The notes under the pieces were generated by a model that saw only the letters and a program-made list of their open reading frames with translations, did no database searches and had not been told where the DNA came from. 55,760 bases of DNA, taken from positions 1-55,760 of IMG/VR virus record IMGVR_UViG_3300048538_000042. One strand, 5' to 3'. Made by a program: the position numbers and the translations under genes. Positions within the stretch are counted from its first letter, which is position 1, and each line of letters begins with the position of its first letter. Source of the DNA: a virus. Positions 20,900 through 44,361 of this stretch are shown one piece after another.

Positions 20900-23800
20900 T
20901 TACTGAGATCTACCTAGAGACTTAGCCAGTGCCTGGGTTGCCGGATCATTGCCAAGGATTGCGGGGTCCACTCGACCCTGCGGAGTTGAAATGGGCGGGG
21001 CCGGAGGGGTCACAGGAGCTTGGTTGAACATGTCCGGTGTTAACCCTTCAAGGGGGTTAGGGGCTTGGTTGAACATGTCCGGTGTTAACCCTTCAAGGGG
21101 GTTAGTTCCAACTAAGGCGTCTCGCATTCGAGACGGCACAAACGTACCTTCTGCTTTGCGCTTGCTTATTGTTGCCAAAGGAGAATCGATAGCTTCGCGG
21201 ACCATAAGGAACATCTCATCATACGGAAGATCCGAAATAGATTGAAAGTCGTTTTCTTTCCTGCGTCTCTCAATAGAGTTTACTAAATCTTCCGATAGAG
21301 GTTTAACATACAAACGACCACGGGCTATTTGGTTGGCCTCCGCAGAGGACATGTTAGCGTCTTCCACTAACGCTCGAATAATATCTCGTGTAGATGCTCC
21401 AAGGATTCGAGCATTTTCAATGTTAACATAAAGCTCGTTTTGTTGTGCTCGATAGGCTTCAATAAGATCAGCAAACTCTTGAGTCTTTTGTTCGCGAGTA
21501 GTATCCCCGGCTCTTACAATTCTCTTTACCGCAGAAAGAGAAGCGTTTCGTCCGTCAGCATATTTTATTGCATCGAACTTAATTGCGTCCGTTGCGGTGT
21601 GAGTCATCGGTGTAAGTCCGGTAAGCATACGAGCAAACTCTGCTTCAGGAAGGCTAAACCTTCCGCTGGCACTAGGCTCCCCAGTTAACGCTTTAAGCGT
21701 TTTTCCTTTTTTTAACTCTCCGCCTTTTTCTTCGTAAAACTCCAACCAATAACGTGGGATCATACCTTCCGCTAGGTGTAAGAAGATTTTGGAACCACGA
21801 TCTCCAAGTAACTTTTCGTCTGTGCGATTCTTATCGTAGACATACGACCCTGTTTTTGTTCTTCCTTCCCGCAGCGTGACATCCAAGATCCGTTCCGTCA
21901 TCATTGTTTCACTTGCGAAAGGTTCTGCCATTTTAGTAATAAAAGTTGCTAAAGACCCTTCTAGTAGTTTTTGAGCTTCACCTTGGTCAAGTTCCCCACG
22001 CTCAGTATAACTTTGCAATGCTGCTCGAACAGCAGAGCGGATGTAACCCCATGGGTTGTGATAACTTGTGTCCACAAAAGTAATGTTCCCCTTATGATCA
22101 TTATCTATAATCATAAGGTCCCCGCCCTTCATGTAAGGTTGAACAGAGGATTCTAAGGCGTCTAACTCTTCCTGAGTTGTGCCTGTTAGTTTCATAGACA
22201 GTCGTGTTAATTGCTGCGGAACAGTGTTAACAACAACCATCGTGTTCACTAAACGCTGAGATCCATTGGATTGAACAGCCTTTTCGAACTCTGAAACTGC
22301 GCGTAAAACTTCGTCTTTTGGAATGCCTTTTGTTGCCTCTTGCGCGATAAGCGCATCGACTTTCCCGAGAGGAACCTTGAAAGAAACCTCTCGCATACCA
22401 AGGTCTGCGATATTAAATATGTTACGAATGTTTTCAGAAGCAAACGACGTAAAGTTGCCAACAACTGGAATACGGTCCACAAAACGCAACGCTTGTGGAA
22501 TCATGTTGTACATGGGCATTGTTTTTTTTACGAGGTTCGCAGCGCCCTCTTCTAATACACTTAAATCCTCAAGGGTTCGTGTGCTTCTAGCGAAGATACC
22601 AGCGTCCTGAAGAGATCCCAATAGAAGTGGATTATCTTCTCTAAATCCGGACTTGGCAAAGGCTTTAGAATACTTGTTGTACTCGCCATTAAACGCAAGA
22701 AGTTTAAAGAACGCGTCTTGCCCTCCGTATAGTTTGTCGAAAGTCTTCATAAAAGGAATGAAATCTTCAGCCCGATCCAACGCTTTACCAACCGCTTGAC
22801 CTTTGGAAGTCTCTCTACCAAATTGTTGGTATTCTTTTAGAGTTTTGTAAACAGCGTTGCTGTCCATTAAACCGGATTGATTAGCTATTTTAGCTAAACG
22901 ACGAAGACCATCATCATCTACATTAACGAGCGACTGTGTGAGTAGATAAAAATTATCGATAAGATTCGTTCCACGATGCGTGTTTCCGTTGGAAACAAGC
23001 ATTGACATGTTGCCTAGTAAGTTTCGGATCTGCCCAGGTAAACTTGGAACGATAGTCATACGTTGAGAAAAAGATCTGATTTGCTGCATTATCGCCGCCA
23101 AGTCATTGAGAGGCGATAAATTCAGAGCCTGTTTCATCGCTCTGTACATTTCAGGAGTAACATACGCATTTTGAAGACGACCAAACTGTCCGCCAAAAAT
23201 AGTGCTAAAACCTTCCGCCTCATCTTTGGCGAGTCCCGCCAAAGGGACATAGTTGCGCTGCTCAAGAACCGTCACAGCATCTTCCATAAACTTCAATTCA
23301 TCAGGAATATTGTTCGTCCCAAGACGATCTCGAATCTCTAATAGAGCAGCCCGTGTTGGGTCGTTTGCATCAAGAGCCTCCTGAACTGTTCGTGTATCAT
23401 TACCGAGTGTTACCATTAGTTTATTACGAGCACTGATGTCTTCCGGAGAGGGCATCATAACAATGTGAGGTCGGCTTCCGTTTTGGATTAAGTCGAGGGC
23501 TCTTGTAAGTCGAGGGGCAATTCCTTGATCTACAGCAAGTTTCCCATAGAACTCATTAGCCGCCCACGACTCAGACAAATCACTCATTGTCCGAGTATAC
23601 ATTTCTTCTGGATCAGTTATTTCTCCTAAGAACTCGCGCAAAGAGTCGCTTTCTTCCAGTATAGGTTTTCTTGAAATCAAGAAGTCTTCTTTAATGGACA
23701 GCTTGGGGGTATCGGCTGTAAGAAAACCTCTTTTTGTCCGGCCTTCTTTTATAGATTCTATGGCATCTTTAAGAACTTTTCCTACGTCTACCCCTGGAGT

Positions 23801-25483
23801 GTTTAAAGCACTTAGTCCCGCGGTGTTGTTTACAAGTTCTTGTGCCTGTTTGCGAATAACTTCAGGAGCTAACCCGCGAGTTTCATCTAATGTTCCAAGA
23901 ACGTTTGAAACTTCTTTAATCGCCTTATTGTAAAGGGGATGATTTAATGTAAACCCTTCTTTCTCAAGTCGGTTTAAAAAGGCTACAGGGTTTTCTTTCG
24001 CTTCAAAAACTCGACGTAAGTACCCTATCCCAGCCTCATCCGATTGACGTATAATTTCAAGGGCTTCTTCAGCCTTACGTCTTTTATCCGATCCCACAGG
24101 AGCGCGTTCTATTTCCAACTCTAATTGCGCGACGTTCCTGTCTATTAAATTCTGTTTAGCGTCCACCATTTTTTGAGCAGCTTTTTCTGCTTTCGCACCA
24201 TATGCTGAAGTAAACTCTTCTGGAGTAGTAAAACCCCGTAACCGTTTTTCAAGATCATTTCGTAAGGCAGTCGCTCCAGGGCGGCTACGTTTTAAAAATC
24301 TAGTAGCTTTTAAAACACTGCCTGTGGCTTCATGAAACTCGTCCATTGCTTGTATACCAGGGCGAACTAAAGAATCCTTCATATCAATAGTGTCTCTAAG
24401 CATTTGTGAGACAAAGGGATCTGCGCCTCCGTCCGGAGTAAACCATGTAACAAGTTTCTTTTTTGCAGCAGGAGCTAAAGGCTTTACCTTGGTACTAAGA
24501 GCTTTTCCAAATGAAGAGCCCATTAGATCCTGAACAACCGCGTTCTGTGCGACTTGAGTTCCTGCGTATTCGGCACTGTCTTTTACAAAGTCTGCTGTTT
24601 TTTTAGCTGTAGTGACCCCGCCACGAACTACGCCTCTTACGGGAGCCGTTCGTGCTACAGTACCAGCACCATATAATCCCAAGTCTACCCCAACGGATAA
24701 AAGAGCTTGTTCTGATGCTTTCTTTAATCGGTTTTTAAAAAAACGTTCCGCGTTGTCTCTACCCGTCAGACCAGTGTCCTCTTCCGTATATAACCAATCT
24801 AAAGGGATGGCCGCGTCCGTAAAAGGTAGAGGTATTTCTTCTATAGTGGTTGAAAGTGTAGGACGACCGTCAGGACTAAACATGAAAGTGCCAACACCTG
24901 TGGCTGCGGTAACAGGTAGACTTGAGGCAGCAAGCTGTGAGAACCGAGAAGCATTGTTTGCCGTTAAGGCTCTTCCTGTTTTTGATTTGCCATACGACTG
25001 TGCGGCACGACCAAACAAAGATTTAGCAGGTTCGACTGCTTTCCCTGCATTTGCCAATCGAGAAGCCTGACTAGCGGTTCGTAAAAAACTTACCGCAGGA
25101 ATTAACGCCGCACCTATTTCTCCTCCAACTTCCGTAACTTGACCAACAGTGTACTTAGGTTCATAGGGTTTTCCAGCGCGTTCCATAAAAGCTGAAACAT
25201 CGTTTAATGTGTCTGTATCAAAAATCGTGTCAAGAACACCCGCGCCTAGTTCCGTTATACCAGTGGCAATATTCCAAGGAACAGATACCGCAGCGCGTCC
25301 AACGTCCGCTATTTTATCAACCCCGGTTAAGACATTGTCAGCTATTCGTGAGACACGAGATTCTTTATTGGACGCATTGAACATTTCAGGAGTAAGACCT
25401 TCAAGCGGATTAGCCGAAGGTTCAACCGGAGTTTGATTGAACATTTCAGGAGTAAGACCTTCAAGCGGATCAGAGTCAGCCAT
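20900..25483 (-). CDS. Large internal virion protein (1527 residues) with terminal NPLEGLTP-MFN tags
   Basis: 1527 residues, ATG with AGGAGA 6 bases upstream. Residues about 5-40 hold two copies of PLEGLTPEMFN; near the C-terminus are two copies of NPLEGLTPDMFNQAP. The interior is helical with hydrophobic stretches (GNMSMLVSNGN, PFMKTFDKLYGG) and long charged helices, as in proteins ejected with podovirus DNA or large polyvalent proteins. No lytic transglycosylase motif was seen. Last gene of the late region. Internal-virion function is inferred from size, place and composition. Confidence 0.65.
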   Translation of the reverse strand: MADSDPLEGLTPEMFNQTPVEPSANPLEGLTPEMFNASNKESRVSRIADNVLTGVDKIADVGRAAVSVPWNIATGITELGAGVLDTIFDTDTLNDVSAFMERAGKPYEPKYTVGQVTEVGGEIGAALIPAVSFLRTASQASRLANAGKAVEPAKSLFGRAAQSYGKSKTGRALTANNASRFSQLAASSLPVTAATGVGTFMFSPDGRPTLSTTIEEIPLPFTDAAIPLDWLYTEEDTGLTGRDNAERFFKNRLKKASEQALLSVGVDLGLYGAGTVARTAPVRGVVRGGVTTAKKTADFVKDSAEYAGTQVAQNAVVQDLMGSSFGKALSTKVKPLAPAAKKKLVTWFTPDGGADPFVSQMLRDTIDMKDSLVRPGIQAMDEFHEATGSVLKATRFLKRSRPGATALRNDLEKRLRGFTTPEEFTSAYGAKAEKAAQKMVDAKQNLIDRNVAQLELEIERAPVGSDKRRKAEEALEIIRQSDEAGIGYLRRVFEAKENPVAFLNRLEKEGFTLNHPLYNKAIKEVSNVLGTLDETRGLAPEVIRKQAQELVNNTAGLSALNTPGVDVGKVLKDAIESIKEGRTKRGFLTADTPKLSIKEDFLISRKPILEESDSLREFLGEITDPEEMYTRTMSDLSESWAANEFYGKLAVDQGIAPRLTRALDLIQNGSRPHIVMMPSPEDISARNKLMVTLGNDTRTVQEALDANDPTRAALLEIRDRLGTNNIPDELKFMEDAVTVLEQRNYVPLAGLAKDEAEGFSTIFGGQFGRLQNAYVTPEMYRAMKQALNLSPLNDLAAIMQQIRSFSQRMTIVPSLPGQIRNLLGNMSMLVSNGNTHRGTNLIDNFYLLTQSLVNVDDDGLRRLAKIANQSGLMDSNAVYKTLKEYQQFGRETSKGQAVGKALDRAEDFIPFMKTFDKLYGGQDAFFKLLAFNGEYNKYSKAFAKSGFREDNPLLLGSLQDAGIFARSTRTLEDLSVLEEGAANLVKKTMPMYNMIPQALRFVDRIPVVGNFTSFASENIRNIFNIADLGMREVSFKVPLGKVDALIAQEATKGIPKDEVLRAVSEFEKAVQSNGSQRLVNTMVVVNTVPQQLTRLSMKLTGTTQEELDALESSVQPYMKGGDLMIIDNDHKGNITFVDTSYHNPWGYIRSAVRAALQSYTERGELDQGEAQKLLEGSLATFITKMAEPFASETMMTERILDVTLREGRTKTGSYVYDKNRTDEKLLGDRGSKIFLHLAEGMIPRYWLEFYEEKGGELKKGKTLKALTGEPSASGRFSLPEAEFARMLTGLTPMTHTATDAIKFDAIKYADGRNASLSAVKRIVRAGDTTREQKTQEFADLIEAYRAQQNELYVNIENARILGASTRDIIRALVEDANMSSAEANQIARGRLYVKPLSEDLVNSIERRRKENDFQSISDLPYDEMFLMVREAIDSPLATISKRKAEGTFVPSRMRDALVGTNPLEGLTPDMFNQAPNPLEGLTPDMFNQAPVTPPAPPISTPQGRVDPAILGNDPATQALAKSLGRSQ
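21018..21105. repeat. 43-bp direct repeat, 45-base period
   Basis: Bases 21018-21060 are repeated perfectly at 21063-21105. They encode the two C-terminal NPLEGLTPDMFNQAP tags of the large virion protein. Confidence 0.9.
25377..25470. repeat. 34-bp direct repeat, 60-base period
   Basis: Bases 25377-25410 and 25437-25470 are identical. They encode the two N-terminal PLEGLTPEMFN tags. Codon choice differs from the C-terminal copies. Confidence 0.9.
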
Positions 25484-25492
25484 GGTGTTCTC

Positions 25493-26746
25493 CTATCCTT
25501 GCTTCACAACATTTCCGGACAGATCTCGAACTGTGCCATCCTCGTCTATTGTTCCGACCTTAGTTGTAGTACCGTCAGGATTTACTTGGATAACATCGGT
25601 GCCTTCTGTTCGTATTGTCGCGGAAGGCGTTTGTTCGCCACCCCCATCTCGAGGCGTCTCAGCCCCACCAATAACCCCTGCGGCACGAGCATCCCTTACA
25701 AGCCCTGGAGCAGCAGCTTCTAAATCGACCAACACTTCGTCAATGCCTCTGGTTCCGCCTCCGCTATATTCTTTCCATAAGGTTATAAACGCTTTTCCGT
25801 CCGCGGTACTAAGCCATTGACCATCTTTCGAAGCATCTTTTCCTGCCGCCCTCGCCCGAGCCTGCGCAAGTGCAGCTTCCTGTGCTGCACGACGCTGTGC
25901 GGTTTCACGTTCCACGGCCAAGCCTTCTACCGCAGCTTGAGATATCCGAGCGCCTAGTGTGGGTCGTATTTCCTGCCCTGTCTGAGGGTTAACGTAGCTT
26001 CCTGAAATCGCACCCGCAAGTTTCGCACCAAAGATCGCTCTGTTTAACTGATCAATTCCCGCTTCTGCTGGAACGGCTTCGATTCCGGTGGATACCGCGG
26101 CCTTAACCAAATCTTTCTTTGTGTCCCCTGTTTGCTGATCTTCAGGAACTACATCCTTAATAATTTCCGCCGCCGCCGCTTCAGGGTTTTCTAACATCTT
26201 CGCAGGAGCCGCCATGTCCGCCCCTTTGGGCAGACCAAGTTTCGCGGGGTCCTCAGTCGTAATCGCCGTCTGACCAAACTCAAACGCTTTGTCGAATGAC
26301 ATTCCTGTGCTTTTTTCCAACTGCGACTGTAATTTAGGTGTCATGTAGTGGTTAGCAAACGCAGAGCCCCCTTCGTTAAACTTTGCCACCCCAGGTTTTT
26401 GAGCCATGGGCCGAGGAGCGGGGGCCATGGGCCGAGGAGCAGGACGAGGAGCGGGAGCCATAGGAGCAGAGCCCTGCTGTATCCCTGCGATATTAGGGAT
26501 AGGCTGAGAAGGTGGCAGCATCTGAGTCATGGGAGCGGGCATAGGCTGGGCCATAGGAGCGGGAGCTTGGGATCTAGGCAGCACAACAGGCTGACGCATT
26601 GCAACCGCCTGCATTAGTTCAGGTGAAGACGCTAAGATGCCTCCCCCCTGCGGGGGCATAGGCTGTACGCCACCCATCTGACGGAGCTTGTTTCGTGCTT
26701 CGTCAGACTTCTTTGCGAACAGCTTCCGGTTGTAAACTCCGTCCAT
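25493..26746 (-). CDS. Proline/glutamine/alanine-rich virion protein
   Basis: 417 residues. Residues about 25-120 are a low-complexity Met-Ala-Pro-Gln stretch (APRPAPRPMAPAPRPMAQ). Then come helices rich in Ala, Lys and Glu (TAQRRAAQEAALAQARARAA) and a Thr/Gly/Asp tail with short beta repeats (GTDVIQVNPDGTTTKVG). Between two probable internal proteins; likely a virion component. No named family. Confidence 0.65.
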   Translation of the reverse strand: MDGVYNRKLFAKKSDEARNKLRQMGGVQPMPPQGGGILASSPELMQAVAMRQPVVLPRSQAPAPMAQPMPAPMTQMLPPSQPIPNIAGIQQGSAPMAPAPRPAPRPMAPAPRPMAQKPGVAKFNEGGSAFANHYMTPKLQSQLEKSTGMSFDKAFEFGQTAITTEDPAKLGLPKGADMAAPAKMLENPEAAAAEIIKDVVPEDQQTGDTKKDLVKAAVSTGIEAVPAEAGIDQLNRAIFGAKLAGAISGSYVNPQTGQEIRPTLGARISQAAVEGLAVERETAQRRAAQEAALAQARARAAGKDASKDGQWLSTADGKAFITLWKEYSGGGTRGIDEVLVDLEAAAPGLVRDARAAGVIGGAETPRDGGGEQTPSATIRTEGTDVIQVNPDGTTTKVGTIDEDGTVRDLSGNVVKQG

Positions 26747-26752
26747 CTTTAC

Positions 26753-28015
26753 CTACCTATTTGTTATGGCACCAAGGCCAGAAGATCCGCCGTACATTTG
26801 CTGGTATGAATCAAGACCCATGGCAGTTCCGACTGTGCTACCAAGTACGTTTTGTTCCGGCGCTACACCCAAGGTTAATGACGAAGAAGGAGTACCTCTA
26901 GTTGCTGTGGCAAATATGTTTGCCAAAGACTCAAACCGTGTGAATGGCTCGTACATCTCTTCGATACCAGCTTGACGCTGTACATCATACTCAGACTGCA
27001 TCTGTGTTTGCTCTATACCACCTAAGTCCATCAAGCTCTTTACGTCTCGGCCTCCAAGAAGCTGTGCGAACTGCCCTAAGCCTGCTTGTGACGAGCCTAG
27101 ACCTTGGAAAACTTGTGCACCCGACTGACCACGGGACAGTTGATTTTCAAAGGCCGTTTGTGATCCTTTTAAAGCGTCTGTGTACCCTGCGGAGCGTAAC
27201 TGCGCCCCTGTTCGAGCCTTTTGCTGTTCGATGTTACGTTGAAGTTCCGACTCTGCAACAGCTTGACGAGATCCACCAAATGCTCCGGCACCCACCGCCC
27301 GAGCACGTTCACCAATCTTGTCGATGTCCCCCGCACGTTGAATTTCCGCCTGCGTTACGTCAATCACATCTTCAACAAACGGATCGTAAAAGTCTGATAC
27401 GCCCCCTGTGCGAACTTCTTTTCCCGTTACAGGATCAGTACGCGCAACTTGTTTAGTTGCGCCTGTTACAGGGTCAGTGACCGTATCATATACTATCTGA
27501 CCAAGAGGGTCATACGTTAGCGCCTGCCCCGTTACAGGATCAAAACCAGTGCCAAGAGCCGAGATCCCCGACTCATAGGTTTGTTTAGCCTCTTCCAGCA
27601 TTGGCGCATATGCACCAATTCCTTCGACACCTAATTTGAGCCCCGCCAGTTGCGTGTCCGTAAAAGGCAAAACATCAGGACGTGGAATGCCGCCAACAAC
27701 GTCTGGAATAGGCTGACCACGAGCATCAAGAACTAGATTACCGTCAGGGTCCCGACGGTAAAGAGGATTGCCTTCCTCGTCTACCCGTGGAGTTCCATAT
27801 AACGCAGACATCGAGCCTATACCCGCGGCATACGACTCCATTACAGGAACCTGTTCTCCCGTTTCAGGATCCGTTTCAAACCGAAGATTACCTTCCGAGT
27901 CTACCGCCTGACGCTCTTCCGTGCGGTACAGATTAGCCAAAAGGTCCTTTATAAACCGCTCTTGATACTCCGGTAAAAGGTTTAGCGTTTGATTGGTAAC
28001 AATTGTCTCTGCCAT
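26753..28015 (-). CDS. Structural protein, probable internal virion component
   Basis: 420 residues. N-terminal helices (LNLLPEYQERFIKDLLANLY), then Gly/Asp repeats of the type DPVTG (DPVTGATKQVARTDPVTGK), then GERARAVGAGAFGGSRQAVA and a long Gln-rich helical part. I have seen this AFGGSRQA arrangement in marine phage virion proteins. Adjacent to the 254-residue Gly/Ala protein by an overlapping start. Exact role unknown. Confidence 0.7.
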   Translation of the reverse strand: MAETIVTNQTLNLLPEYQERFIKDLLANLYRTEERQAVDSEGNLRFETDPETGEQVPVMESYAAGIGSMSALYGTPRVDEEGNPLYRRDPDGNLVLDARGQPIPDVVGGIPRPDVLPFTDTQLAGLKLGVEGIGAYAPMLEEAKQTYESGISALGTGFDPVTGQALTYDPLGQIVYDTVTDPVTGATKQVARTDPVTGKEVRTGGVSDFYDPFVEDVIDVTQAEIQRAGDIDKIGERARAVGAGAFGGSRQAVAESELQRNIEQQKARTGAQLRSAGYTDALKGSQTAFENQLSRGQSGAQVFQGLGSSQAGLGQFAQLLGGRDVKSLMDLGGIEQTQMQSEYDVQRQAGIEEMYEPFTRFESLANIFATATRGTPSSSLTLGVAPEQNVLGSTVGTAMGLDSYQQMYGGSSGLGAITNR

Positions 28016-32937: not shown

Positions 32938-35004
32938 TTATGCTATTGCGTAGAAGATGTAAGTACCCGCAGTAAAGCTGCTGGTAATCGTGAAGCCTGA
33001 CGATAGCGGGTCAATGTAGTCTGTGTTCGTAACTTCTGCCGCTGTTGAGTTTAGCAGTAAATATGGGTCATTGCCTGACACAATGCCACGCTCACTATCC
33101 CAAACATACCAATCGCCAGATGCGTCAGTGCGCTTTAGAAGCACAAATCTAGCACCTGACGTAAAGCCACAGTCCACGTTTGTTGTTCCAGAATGGGTTG
33201 CTGAACCAACTTTGGATATGCCAGCAAGGGTTGCAAATAGATAGGCTATGTAGGTGGAAGAACTTCCGTTTACGTTACCTTGTGTGCCTAAAGTAAAAAC
33301 AGATGACGTTGGTGCAGTATCGTTCCACAGTGTATTGAGGTCATATTCCGCACTGGTTTCGTTTAAGTTTATGCCATATTGTTCTGGATTAGTGCCGCCG
33401 TTTAAACCCTTGTGATAAACACGCCACAAACCTGCTGCATTTCTTTTCTTCACCCACATCATTTCAGGCGCAACACCAAGGTTATGGCTTACAGTACGCC
33501 CTGCTGTTCCGTTCCCCGTGTATGCCACTACGTCCATGTAGCTAGGCGCACGTTTCCACATCCATTGATACAGGTTAGAATTAGTAAATGTGGCTGTGCC
33601 GATACCCGTCATCAGATCATTGTGCTGACCAGCATCATCACCAACAACTTCATCGGCTTCCGTATCATTTGGTTTTAAGTATGCCTCATCACCACGCATT
33701 CTATCAAACAGACGCCAGTTTTGTGATATGTCTGCTCTTTTATAAAGATACATATCAACAGGGAAACCAGCCGTGAACAAAGGAGGCGTAGGTGATGTCC
33801 CACTGGCAGTATCAATTGCAAACACCTCAGTCGCACTCGTAGGCGGCGCAAGTGGGCCACGGCGTATGGCTATGTAGATGTAAGTTGAGCCATTAACAGA
33901 TATGTTGTTGCCTCTTACAGCAAAACCATTTGCGTGAGGGTCAATACCGTAAGTATCTGATTGCTCTGCGTCAGATGTATTAGGTTTTAAGCGAGCATCA
34001 TTTCCAGAAGGTGTACTGCCAGTGCCGCCTTGGTCTGGCATACCACGCATAACATCAAAGATCATCCAGTCTTGACTTGAGTCAGTGCGCTTAATCATTA
34101 CCCACTGCGCCTCAAAGCCTAAGTCTATTTCTTGATAATTACCGGTTCCACTATAACTCCCACACTTAATAATGTCCGAACCATCAGGGCCGAAGTCACC
34201 GTCACCGTCATTGTGTGCGAATAGGTAGGCAACGTATGAGCGGCCTGTGGCGTTTACATTGCCATCATTTCCTAATGTAAATGCAGCGCTGGTAGGTTCA
34301 GTAGCATTCCAATAAGCCGTACCAGCATTACCCTCTGCGCCTGTGTCAAACTCTAAGTACTTGCCACTACCACTGGAGCGATGGTAAATAGTCCATGCTG
34401 TAGAACTTCTGCTTGTGCATTTTACAATAATAGTTCCGACAGTAGTGCCAAGGTTATGCGCAATCTCTCGCCCAGCAGTATTGTTCCCGTCCCATGTCAC
34501 CACATCAAAGAACTTAGGGGCTTTGCGGAATGTCCAAGAGACGTAGGTTTCATTAGTAGAAGAAAACGGGCCAGTAGTGAATCCGTTTGTTAAAAAAGAA
34601 GGCCCTGAGCCTATAGAACCTGACGCACCCTCTGCGTCTGTCTTATTACTGTGCAGGTAGTCTGTACCCGTTAAACCTCTATCAGAATCATACAAGAAAT
34701 GATTAGAGTAAAAGTCGCCACTACTCCTAGCTCGTGTCTTAAACCAAACCAAACCACCTTCGCCATCAAGGTCAATCCCGTTGGTAATCGTTTGTGAAGA
34801 GCCTGTGCCAGTATACAAATAAGTGCTGAACAAATCTGTAATATCAGGAGGAAGATTACCCGGTATAGGCCAAAGGCCTGCCTTTTGGTATGCAAGCTGT
34901 TCTTCTAAAGACCACACGCCTTTCGCGGCGCTGCCTTGAAAATTACCAGCAGGCGCTGTCGGGTTCTGCGTGATGATGTTGCCAAGATAGCGTTTATCAG
35001 ACAT
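32938..35004 (-). CDS. Tail fibre / adhesin with repeated beta modules
   Basis: 688 residues. N-terminal attachment segment GVWSLEEQLAYQKAGLWPIP (also in gene 35004). Then about four beta modules built of units such as FDVVTWDGNNTAGREIAHNL, WVMIKRTDSSQDWMIFDVMR and MDVVAYTGNGTAGRTVSHNL, typical of phage receptor-binding modules in marine phages. It ends in TAGTYIFYAIA. Likely the host-recognition fibre; the receptor is unknown. Confidence 0.8.
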   Translation of the reverse strand: MSDKRYLGNIITQNPTAPAGNFQGSAAKGVWSLEEQLAYQKAGLWPIPGNLPPDITDLFSTYLYTGTGSSQTITNGIDLDGEGGLVWFKTRARSSGDFYSNHFLYDSDRGLTGTDYLHSNKTDAEGASGSIGSGPSFLTNGFTTGPFSSTNETYVSWTFRKAPKFFDVVTWDGNNTAGREIAHNLGTTVGTIIVKCTSRSSTAWTIYHRSSGSGKYLEFDTGAEGNAGTAYWNATEPTSAAFTLGNDGNVNATGRSYVAYLFAHNDGDGDFGPDGSDIIKCGSYSGTGNYQEIDLGFEAQWVMIKRTDSSQDWMIFDVMRGMPDQGGTGSTPSGNDARLKPNTSDAEQSDTYGIDPHANGFAVRGNNISVNGSTYIYIAIRRGPLAPPTSATEVFAIDTASGTSPTPPLFTAGFPVDMYLYKRADISQNWRLFDRMRGDEAYLKPNDTEADEVVGDDAGQHNDLMTGIGTATFTNSNLYQWMWKRAPSYMDVVAYTGNGTAGRTVSHNLGVAPEMMWVKKRNAAGLWRVYHKGLNGGTNPEQYGINLNETSAEYDLNTLWNDTAPTSSVFTLGTQGNVNGSSSTYIAYLFATLAGISKVGSATHSGTTNVDCGFTSGARFVLLKRTDASGDWYVWDSERGIVSGNDPYLLLNSTAAEVTNTDYIDPLSSGFTITSSFTAGTYIFYAIA

Positions 35005-35936
35005 TATGAAAGTCCTCCGTGGGCAGTAGATACAGCACCCGTACCACCATTGCCAAAGTATAAATCCCCAAAGTCAGTTGAGTTACCCGTAGAGGATATA
35101 GTAATATACTCACAGGCAGAAGTCGCTTCTCCCACCTGTATTAAACCTCTTGTGGAATTACTTGTACCCGTAGCAAATTGTTTACCCACGCTTAAATCGC
35201 CAAAGTCTAAAGCATTGCCCGTTGAAGCTATAGTGACATATTGAATAGTATTAACTAAAGCTGAACCGCTAAAACCCCCTGCTATTATACCTCGTGTGGA
35301 ACTTGAAAGCCCCGCACAATCGCCTTGAGATGTTACTAAATTCCCAAAATCAGTAGCATTCCCAGCAGAAGCTATAGTAACATAATCAATCGTATTGACT
35401 ACCGTTGGAGTTTTGCCGCCCGCAAAAACACTTCTCGTAGGTGATGAAAAGCCAGCCAAAGAGCCTCGTGCTTGCGTGGTATCTCCAAAGTCAGTAGCAT
35501 TTCCTGTTGATGCTATGGTAATAAAACTTATCGTATTAACTATATACCCATCAACAAAAATTCCACGGGTTTCGTTTCCTGAACCGCTGTCACTTTTTAT
35601 ATTTGTGTTTTGAGCATCGCCAAAGTCACCTGTAACTCCAAGCGACCGCATAGTTACAAATTCCATTACATTAGACTTTAAGTTGCCTGTAGATTTACCA
35701 AAAGCATAAACACCACGAGTGCTTGAAGACATCCCCGCAGTGTAAAAATTACCAGCAGACAAATCTCCCCAAGTAATTCCGTTGCCCGTTGTGGTAATAA
35801 CCACATAATAAACACCTGCTTCTGCGGCCTGACCTGACGTAAACAACGCAAGATCCCCCGTTATTGGGGGCAGAGGCCAAGCCCCAGCATTCTGATACTG
35901 CGTTGAGAGCGACCATACACCTTGATAATTGGGCAT
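35004..35936 (-). CDS. Tail fibre with ATDFGDL repeats
   Basis: 310 residues. Starts YQGVWSLSTQYQNAGAWPLP, the same attachment segment as gene 32938. Then come about six repeats of roughly 45 residues ending in IDYVTIASTGNATDFGDL with RGVYAFGK-like turns, suggesting a Kelch-like or beta-solenoid fibre. It ends in STAHGGLS, matching the next gene upstream. Confidence 0.75.
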   Translation of the reverse strand: MPNYQGVWSLSTQYQNAGAWPLPPITGDLALFTSGQAAEAGVYYVVITTTGNGITWGDLSAGNFYTAGMSSSTRGVYAFGKSTGNLKSNVMEFVTMRSLGVTGDFGDAQNTNIKSDSGSGNETRGIFVDGYIVNTISFITIASTGNATDFGDTTQARGSLAGFSSPTRSVFAGGKTPTVVNTIDYVTIASAGNATDFGNLVTSQGDCAGLSSSTRGIIAGGFSGSALVNTIQYVTIASTGNALDFGDLSVGKQFATGTSNSTRGLIQVGEATSACEYITISSTGNSTDFGDLYFGNGGTGAVSTAHGGLS

Positions 35937-35958
35937 TATGAAAGTCCTCCGTGGGCAT
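35004..35958. repeat. Shared ends of the two ATDFGDL fibre genes
   Basis: The sequence TATGAAAGTCCTCCGTGGGCA, coding the shared C-terminus and the next start, occurs at about 35005-35025 and again at about 35937-35957. It is a possible crossover site for exchange between fibre genes. Confidence 0.8.
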
Positions 35959-37135
35959 TGGATGTAGCGTTAACGCTCTCCCTGCCGCGTGAATTAGCTG
36001 TGGGTGATATTAGATCGCCAAAGTCTGTAGCGTTACCTGTAGAACCTATAGTGATATACTGAATAACCCTTGATGGATTAAAAGTAGCCTCTGTTCCCCC
36101 AGCAAAAAGACCCCTTGTCGCGTTTGCTGTGCCGCCCATTTGTTCTTGGGCCTCAAGAAGATCGCCAAAGTCTGTAGCATTACCTGTTGAAGCTATTGTT
36201 ACATATTGAATAATATTGGTAGCAGTTGGGCCACCACCAGCAATAACACCTCGTGTATTATTTGATAAACCTGACGTGTAAAAATTACTTGTATTCGTAA
36301 GATCACCAAAATCTATAGCGTTGCCTGTAGTGTCTATAGTGATGTATTGAATGACGTTACTACTACTACCGCCACCTACAAACAAACCTCTTGTTGGTGA
36401 AGCACAAGTTGATCCACCGTTAAGTTCAACGCCTATTAGATCGCCAAAGTTTGTGCTATTACCTGTTGAAGCTATGGTTACATATTCTATATTATCTTTT
36501 GACTCCCCACCACCAAAAACACCCCTTGTACCATTAGAAAGACCTGTAACACCTCTAGTAGAGTAAGAGATTTCACCAAAAGAAACAGCGTTGCCAGTGG
36601 ATGCTATCGTGATGTAATCTATATCATTTGATACTTGCTCTGGGCCGGTCTTTAATATTAACCCCCTAGTAGAACTAGCAACTGTACCACTAGCTGCATT
36701 ACTTGAAGATGTTAAATCCCCGAAATCTACCGCATCTGCTGTTGTTGCAATAGAAACATAATCTATTATATTTGTCGGGTTAGAGCGTCCCATACCACCA
36801 GAAAACACAGCACGAGATGCAGTGGGCGATGCACTACTTGTTGCGTCACTAGGTGCAGAATAACCAAAAGGATTTATAGCCCATACGTTAAACGTATAAC
36901 TTGAGCCTGAAGACAGACCACCAACGGCAATAGGCGATTCTGAACCAGACGCAGAATGTGTTCCTGTGCTGTCCTGCACATGGTAGCTAGTTATAGCAGC
37001 GCCGCCTGTATCTGTAGGAGCAGTAAAGCTAACATTTACTACAGTATCAATCCCGCCAGAAGCACTAACCCCTGTCGCTGGATCAGGTGCATTAAGTCCG
37101 TCTTGGCCTATAAAGCCGCCTTTACCATTAGACAT
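35936..37135 (-). CDS. Tail fibre: FnIII domain plus ATDFGDL repeats
   Basis: 399 residues. Residues about 15-100 form a fibronectin type III domain (VVNVSFTAPTDTGGAAITSY, GLSSGSSYTFNVWAINPFGY). The rest carries the same repeats as gene 35004 (IDYITIASTGNAVSFGEI) with GTRGVFGGGES turns, ending SNAHGGLS. The FnIII domain probably binds carbohydrate or anchors the fibre. Confidence 0.8.
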   Translation of the reverse strand: MSNGKGGFIGQDGLNAPDPATGVSASGGIDTVVNVSFTAPTDTGGAAITSYHVQDSTGTHSASGSESPIAVGGLSSGSSYTFNVWAINPFGYSAPSDATSSASPTASRAVFSGGMGRSNPTNIIDYVSIATTADAVDFGDLTSSSNAASGTVASSTRGLILKTGPEQVSNDIDYITIASTGNAVSFGEISYSTRGVTGLSNGTRGVFGGGESKDNIEYVTIASTGNSTNFGDLIGVELNGGSTCASPTRGLFVGGGSSSNVIQYITIDTTGNAIDFGDLTNTSNFYTSGLSNNTRGVIAGGGPTATNIIQYVTIASTGNATDFGDLLEAQEQMGGTANATRGLFAGGTEATFNPSRVIQYITIGSTGNATDFGDLISPTANSRGRESVNATSNAHGGLS

Positions 37136-43828: not shown

Positions 43829-44290
43829 TTAAGCGAGGTTATTGTTTTGCTGATACAAAATTGTAAAACGAACTAAACCCGCATTTGTTGCAGCAGAGCC
43901 AGTAACAGTTAAACGAATATCCGCTGTGCCTGTGTCTTGCCATGCTAATGCAGCACCTGCTTGCGTGGTTGGATATTTACGTCCCGCGTCTGTTCCACTT
44001 GCAAATGTATTCAAAATAGTTGCTGCACCACCTACGGTATCACCAACACTCAAGTTTGTTGAGGCATTAGCCGCCGTGATAATATCAATAACACAGTCAA
44101 TAATTTGAGAATTTGCAGGAATTACAACGTCAGTAACTTGTGCAGCTACTGCTCCGCCAGATAGATCCACTGAAAATGTCTGAGCCATAACGACTTGACC
44201 AGTGTTCTTAATATTTGATCCAAGGGTTGTACCCGTGGTTTCTTTAATGGTCCCTGCTTTAATAGGACCTGAAAAAGTTGTCGTACCCAT
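43829..44290 (-). CDS. Beta-rich virion protein
   Basis: 153 residues. Start GTTTFSGPIKAGTIKETTGT is a common opening of phage head-region proteins; the rest is strands with Val/Thr/Ala (VAAQVTDVVIPANSQIIDCV). First gene after the capsid terminator. Perhaps a decoration or spike protein. Confidence 0.7.
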   Translation of the reverse strand: MGTTTFSGPIKAGTIKETTGTTLGSNIKNTGQVVMAQTFSVDLSGGAVAAQVTDVVIPANSQIIDCVIDIITAANASTNLSVGDTVGGAATILNTFASGTDAGRKYPTTQAGAALAWQDTGTADIRLTVTGSAATNAGLVRFTILYQQNNNLA

Positions 44291-44361
44291 GTCGATCTCC
44301 TGTCTAGGTAAATGTCAGCCGCACCTTGCGACTGTCAGGGATGACTAAACAATACAGAAGA

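Follow-up and report, generated by a model that had tools for sequence, protein, structure and literature searches.

In the docking domains of modular polyketide synthases and in other peptide/mini-domain pairs, the C-terminal element of protein n recognizes the N-terminal element of protein n+1, the pairs are matched and swappable, and gene order follows contact order. In phage T7, the N-terminal "molecular tape" of gp16 stitches the flexible C-terminal region of gp15, which is encoded just upstream (PMC8954989). The large polyvalent proteins of phages, with their LPD and ART domains, are giant in size and modular at their ends (Iyer et al. 2017, PMC5512222); searching the text of that paper turned up no reference to linear motifs. 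Homology is of little help with ejection proteins, which have diverged too far, and the question addressed here is how the very large internal proteins of short-tailed phages are recruited and ordered.

P0001 is a large virion (ejection-type) protein of 1527 residues, encoded at 20900..25483 on the minus strand of the window (i.e., the whole 55,760-nt stretch of viral DNA analyzed), and bears short repeated tags. Directly upstream is the gene for a 417-aa protein with an N-terminal GILASSPELM hallmark (25493..26746, minus strand), the predicted partner on the basis of its diverged homologues in tag-swapped phage pairs. Its C-terminal mini-domain, SATIRTEGTDVIQVNPDGTTTKVGTIDEDGTVRDLSGNVVKQG (25496..25624, minus strand), comprises about 43 aa (...TDVIQVNPDGTTTKVGTIDEDGTVRDLSGNVVKQG), ends 9 nt ahead of the start of the large gene, and is predicted to bind the tags from its position, the logic of the tag classes, and a modeled fold of five beta strands. 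The next protein in the same cluster (420 aa; 26753..28015, minus strand) matches phrog_4287, "DNA ejection protein" (E = 6e-7). The succession of ejection protein, 417-aa protein, and 1527-aa protein is reminiscent of the ejection proteins of podoviruses; by gene order and PHROG matches, a middle and a large internal virion protein are encoded side by side behind the structural genes.

P0001 harbors no Pfam family up to E = 1 and weakly matches PHROG 22602, "virion structural protein" (E = 5e-4), while its relatives clearly match PHROG "virion structural protein" (E = 8.5e-22). Among cultured phages, Pelagibacter phage HTVC027P has the closest, albeit distant, relative, gp85, a "putative structural protein" (24% identical over 30%), and the terminases of the window and HTVC027P (57.6% identical) indicate the same phages. 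In contrast to P0001, gp85 lacks a repeated tag at both ends. The family matches include no T7 family. Elsewhere in the window, a match to the Rfam Mu-gpT-DE RNA (44288-44340, minus strand, 64.8 bits) lies just downstream of the gene for the major head protein, and two adjoining tail-region proteins (35004-37135, minus strand) have nearly the same C-termini (TAHGGLS and NAHGGLS) and also contain TGN[AS]TDFGDL repeats.

Motif search and codon comparison locate the N-terminal tags, DPLEGLTPEMFN at residues 5-16 (25436..25471, minus strand) and NPLEGLTPEMFN at residues 25-36 (25376..25411, minus strand). The same methods, together with a test for N-to-C echoes, locate the C-terminal tags, both NPLEGLTPDMFN, at residues 1461-1472 (21068..21103, minus strand) and 1476-1487 (21023..21058, minus strand). 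PLEGLTP[ED]MFN occurs in P0001 exactly four times, twice toward each end as reported in a first-pass annotation of this DNA, and a fifth copy is absent from the whole window. That annotation placed the tags at both termini; the C-terminal pair, 40-67 residues before the end, is near the terminus rather than at it. Chance is excluded, as the tags score 66-67, the next match in the window 27, and the top of 50 shuffles 38. An internal TPEMY at 23138 was considered as a further tag and rejected, as it belongs to the coding body. The last residues of P0001, RVDPAILGNDPATQALA (20903-20974, minus strand), are similar to the NPxLLGSNPIDxLKN tails of many relatives and may represent another conserved terminal element, located after the tags.

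The pairs differ in codon choice, as had been noted at first pass: 8 of 12 codons (9-10 nt) are different between N- and C-terminal copies, with only one or two residue changes, which are conservative. Inside each pair, the copies are near-identical over the tag (35/36 and 36/36 nt). The earlier view of each pair as a recent perfect duplication is valid for the window only, as the paired copies of the sister contig L011 have already diverged at synonymous sites. Because the echo was found via peptide similarity, the scarcity of residue changes partly reflects the search itself, unlike the synonymous divergence. Retention of the peptide with divergent codons excludes recent end-to-end copying and points to selection acting on the tag peptide.

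The PLEGLTP tag was sought on other proteins of the same phage and not found, and DNA-pattern scans of viral and genome collections yielded no exact copy outside near-identical contigs. Beyond close kin, a relaxed form gave a single match in these scans, in a 27-residue non-coding frame, rather than at random positions or in unrelated cytoplasmic proteins. A tblastn search of phage records with the tags and the mini-domain of the window returned chance-level matches only (E 2-7). PLEGLTP as a general phage motif was rejected, since exact copies are confined to this phage and its kin.

Relatives were gathered with a profile derived from P0001, HTVC027P gp85, and a Pseudoalteromonas phage protein, which afforded 79 loci, and with a pattern for the conserved AQEFFEG anchor, which added more. 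Their N-terminal arms hold other short repeats (among them LFGVPV, FEIIDPGTP, IDPNLLAAP, FSLGPALEE, LDLDAIGQ, GPWEKYQ, RYEILP, EFxPQP, NPFLAAP, and PWEKYQ), and some have a small folded-looking N-terminal module in place of repeats. Unrelated N-terminal arms are found on bodies that are 97-99% identical over the next 330 residues (L012, L024, and L076; L032 and L092). Among other tagged proteins, a large protein in L261 carries GLSxTPP approximately four times at each end, and L297 has MFGD[ET]AV four times at its N-terminus. In L106 and L139, a P0001 relative carries SFDDL[LI]P twice behind roughly 480 additional N-terminal residues that, by eye, resemble an ADP-ribosyltransferase (GSPHDFEKFD...HGLYFT); tags can thus occupy a domain junction.

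In about 15 tag classes, the N-terminal tag is echoed at the C-terminus, e.g., the LFGxPV-type tags at both ends in L104 and L091. In 50 dereplicated complete proteins, N versus C scores are 41.4 for self and 25.7 for cross comparisons (p = 1e-4 with or without the window). In the first such test, confined to the distant family, the signal came mainly from the window itself and became general only after related clades were added. When the 248 ORFs with 300 aa or more from the first 119 sources were compared, the P0001 family showed the strongest echoes, with the exception of one repetitive tail protein. It was also predicted and recorded beforehand that contigs cut before the C-terminus should carry their own N tag there; when the missing DNA was fetched, FEIIDPGTP, EFxPQP, and PWE[KR][YF]Q were echoed as predicted. 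Two proteins with a non-tag N-terminal module lack a C-terminal tag.

One reading of these echoes is homotypic, i.e., N and C tags bind each other within or between chains and set the oligomeric order of the large protein, with any correlation to a neighboring protein being secondary. This would explain why N and C tags are identical in each phage and why no further protein of that phage carries the tag. It leaves unexplained both the phages with N tags that have no C echo (L024, L102, L231, and L270) and the tight co-variation with the upstream mini-domain described below, and its chances are very slim.

In phage pairs that share the large protein and differ in the tag, the directly upstream gene is the outlier in identity, at 41% versus 91-98%, 28% versus 96%, and 54% versus mostly 82-91% for other genes; two more pairs show a weaker contrast. 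A capsid-targeting or protease-processing signal, by which the tags would contact the capsid, scaffold, or portal or designate sites of cleavage, is consistent with terminal placement on a virion-type protein, and the T4 capsid-targeting sequences are a general precedent for terminal signals. Such a role is nonetheless very unlikely, as the tag letters vary among large proteins that are 97-99% identical in the compared stretch and track the upstream gene, while most other shared neighbor genes in the compared contigs stay about 82-100% identical.

It is the last 20-45 or so residues of the upstream protein that track the tag class, even where the remainder differs. The mini-domain EYDALPxGxxF accompanies the tag [LMR]FGxPV, ANDAAK..YT..G..F.VQ accompanies [ED]FVPxPV, TTPGxRxxDxxTGKIMVVG accompanies RYEILP, GGN+FxV accompanies FDPNAPF, GGDPxxxxNWEKV accompanies PWExY, and a helical tail accompanies NPF[LM]. 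A Mantel comparison of tag and mini-domain over 95 junctions, mostly from uncultivated contigs as are most of the sequences compared, gives r = 0.711 (permutation maximum 0.09) and, when restricted to junctions with both flanking bodies unrelated, r = 0.279 (permutation maximum 0.176); both values are beyond all 2000 permutations. Where mini-domains score at least 80 and the bodies are unrelated, tags are similar in 7/7 pairs, compared with a 1% baseline. The PLEGLTP-class mini-domain has no independent relative in the tblastn search of phage records or in the viral and genome pattern scans, and its pairing is therefore derived from position and from the rule in the other classes.

The polarity of the pairing may be reversed. 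Where the large protein starts with a small N-terminal module (MALIDSLRQxYPMYSDKS, MSKTLNYGGVDYTFEDG, or MPTFSELESAA), it is a short peptide (DPL[NG]L, VDLS, or SLD[ED]I) that closes the upstream protein, as judged by eye. N-terminal modules replace the tags in the next genes of L012, L032, L166, L219, and L247. These junctions were included in the Mantel test, the flip itself being seen by eye, and suggest that the peptide may be borne by either protein.

Scans selected on the mini-domain alone extend the pairing. The partner mini-domain of the PW tags, GG[DN]P..NW.K, was searched in phage records, and all seven records opened (EBPR podovirus 2, a Bradyrhizobium phage, Pseudomonas USP_18 and F116, Aeromonas BUCT695, and two oyster-associated phages) carry a PW tag twice where the next gene begins. 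The tagged proteins range from 197 to 4948 aa and include a lysozyme and a putative lysin. In F116, the tags are in a frame that is broken downstream in the record. The record gives F116p59 (L272, 16931-17400) a start in the wrong frame; MADTSKPWEEF..KPWEEFG, probably the true start, is in another frame that soon stops, so the record has a frameshift or a real break.

A DNA-pattern scan for EYDALPSG matched 55 stretches, and in 53 of the 54 that are readable the motif is 21-23 aa from the C-terminus. At least two tags of the [WFY]..[AP].[VI] type are present in 30/39 of the next genes, compared with 8/212 other ORFs and 1/37 internal windows; the regular expression was composed after data inspection, and the associated p of 1e-23 is therefore descriptive. 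In most of the nine misses, a tag is visible by eye. These pairings span a wide phage range, and the tagged genes belong to glucosaminidase, phage tail lysozyme, LPD38 (L315), and PHROG DNA ejection protein families. In L312, mini-domain and tagged gene are separated by 354 nt, yet the pairing is kept. Cultured phage records returned no match for the EYDALPSG- or ANDAAK-type mini-domains. For the RYEILP partner, scanning added only a single contig, which nearly duplicates L192 and thus does not provide an independent test.

The N-terminal tag and the mini-domain are usually DNA neighbors (gaps of -4 to 17 nt) and swaps replace both, so a single recombination event could move the two without function. 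The pair could then be a hitchhiking cassette: a recombination hotspot would trade, in a single piece of DNA, the 3′ terminus of the upstream gene together with the 5′ terminus of its successor, while the tag would bind nothing and owe its repeats to slippage in a disordered linker. This origin is considered unlikely. About 15 classes repeat the tag at the C-terminus, 4 kb away, the peptide is retained despite codon divergence, and unrelated proteins show the same pairing in phages of Pseudomonas, Bradyrhizobium, and Aeromonas and in uncultivated phages, although functionless linkage should decay. The distant C-terminal tags, the unrelated bodies, and the 354-nt case make the linkage reading weaker without eliminating it.

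The upstream gene stops in the same frame in which the large gene starts, allowing the natural read-through to be folded as a single chain by AF2, which was supplied with two near-identical sequences. In the model, the mini-domain of the window consists of five beta strands and reaches a pLDDT of 86-91. The first tag has a pLDDT of 83 and a short helix, the linker is below 50, and the identical second tag is at 50-59. This pattern is as expected from a single site occupied by the nearer tag, a putative docking that is read from pLDDT alone. With the same design, the EYDALPSG class gives a mini-domain pLDDT of about 78 and tags at 45-60. A Foldseek search of the PDB with the fusion model found no significant match.

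Matched, swappable tag/mini-domain pairs that are conserved at the peptide level are observed across these phages. The preferred reading, with a probability of roughly three in four, is that the tags are docking peptides that link two ejection-type virion proteins by binding the mini-domain at the C-terminus of the upstream one. The first-pass proposal of a docking tag for a partner thereby gains support and a candidate partner, the mini-domain at 25496-25624. Judged from sequence comparison, the conserved entity is the pairing and not the PLEGLTP letters, which are phage-specific and swapped with the upstream gene; since tag and mini-domain are exchanged together, specificity would amount to a phage-specific key.

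In the proposed mechanism, the large protein has two tags in a probably disordered arm at its N-terminus and two in a likewise disordered arm at its C-terminus, and each could bind the roughly 43-aa beta mini-domain of the protein encoded directly upstream. With multiple tags per chain at both ends, one large protein may engage several copies of the upstream protein, gaining avidity. The two-ended tags would fasten both ends of the large protein to the upstream-protein assembly, like the large and middle ejection proteins of podoviruses, presumably in the virion core or, once ejection has taken place, in the channel.

On balance, though by no means firmly, the data favor a broader interpretation, a previously undescribed general docking code of tailed phages. 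It would comprise tens of tag/mini-domain classes, with exchanged keys and locks and reversible polarity, and would decide which large effector, lysozyme, or ejection protein loads onto the preceding virion protein. A search of the open-access literature yielded no account of such a code or tag, and this wiring of the infection machine seems undescribed so far. If true, the tag class tells the partner class, such that virion proteins could be paired from sequence alone; the exchange of giant proteins, lysozymes, and polyvalent proteins among phages would be explained; and small orthogonal peptide/domain pairs would be at hand for cargo loading into particles. A question about the assembly of the ejection machine would become directly testable with two short recombinant pieces.

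Comparison with known systems reveals several similarities and salient differences. Like the proposed pair, gp15 and gp16 of T7 are a middle and a large ejection protein encoded by consecutive genes, and because the gp16 tape cements gp15, the proposed geometry has a precedent in function, not in sequence. The likeness stems from gene order and PHROG matches rather than homology, and T7 is not known to have repeated short tags, a C-terminal copy, or a swappable mini-domain. The likeness to polyvalent phage proteins drawn at first pass stands in part: among tagged proteins, L315 harbors LPD38 and L106 the extension that resembles an ADP-ribosyltransferase by eye, but P0001 itself, with no Pfam match, has no LPD or ART domain found. 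In contrast to polyketide synthase docking domains, the tags described here would join virion proteins, and the peptide is repeated two to four times, often also at the far end of the protein.
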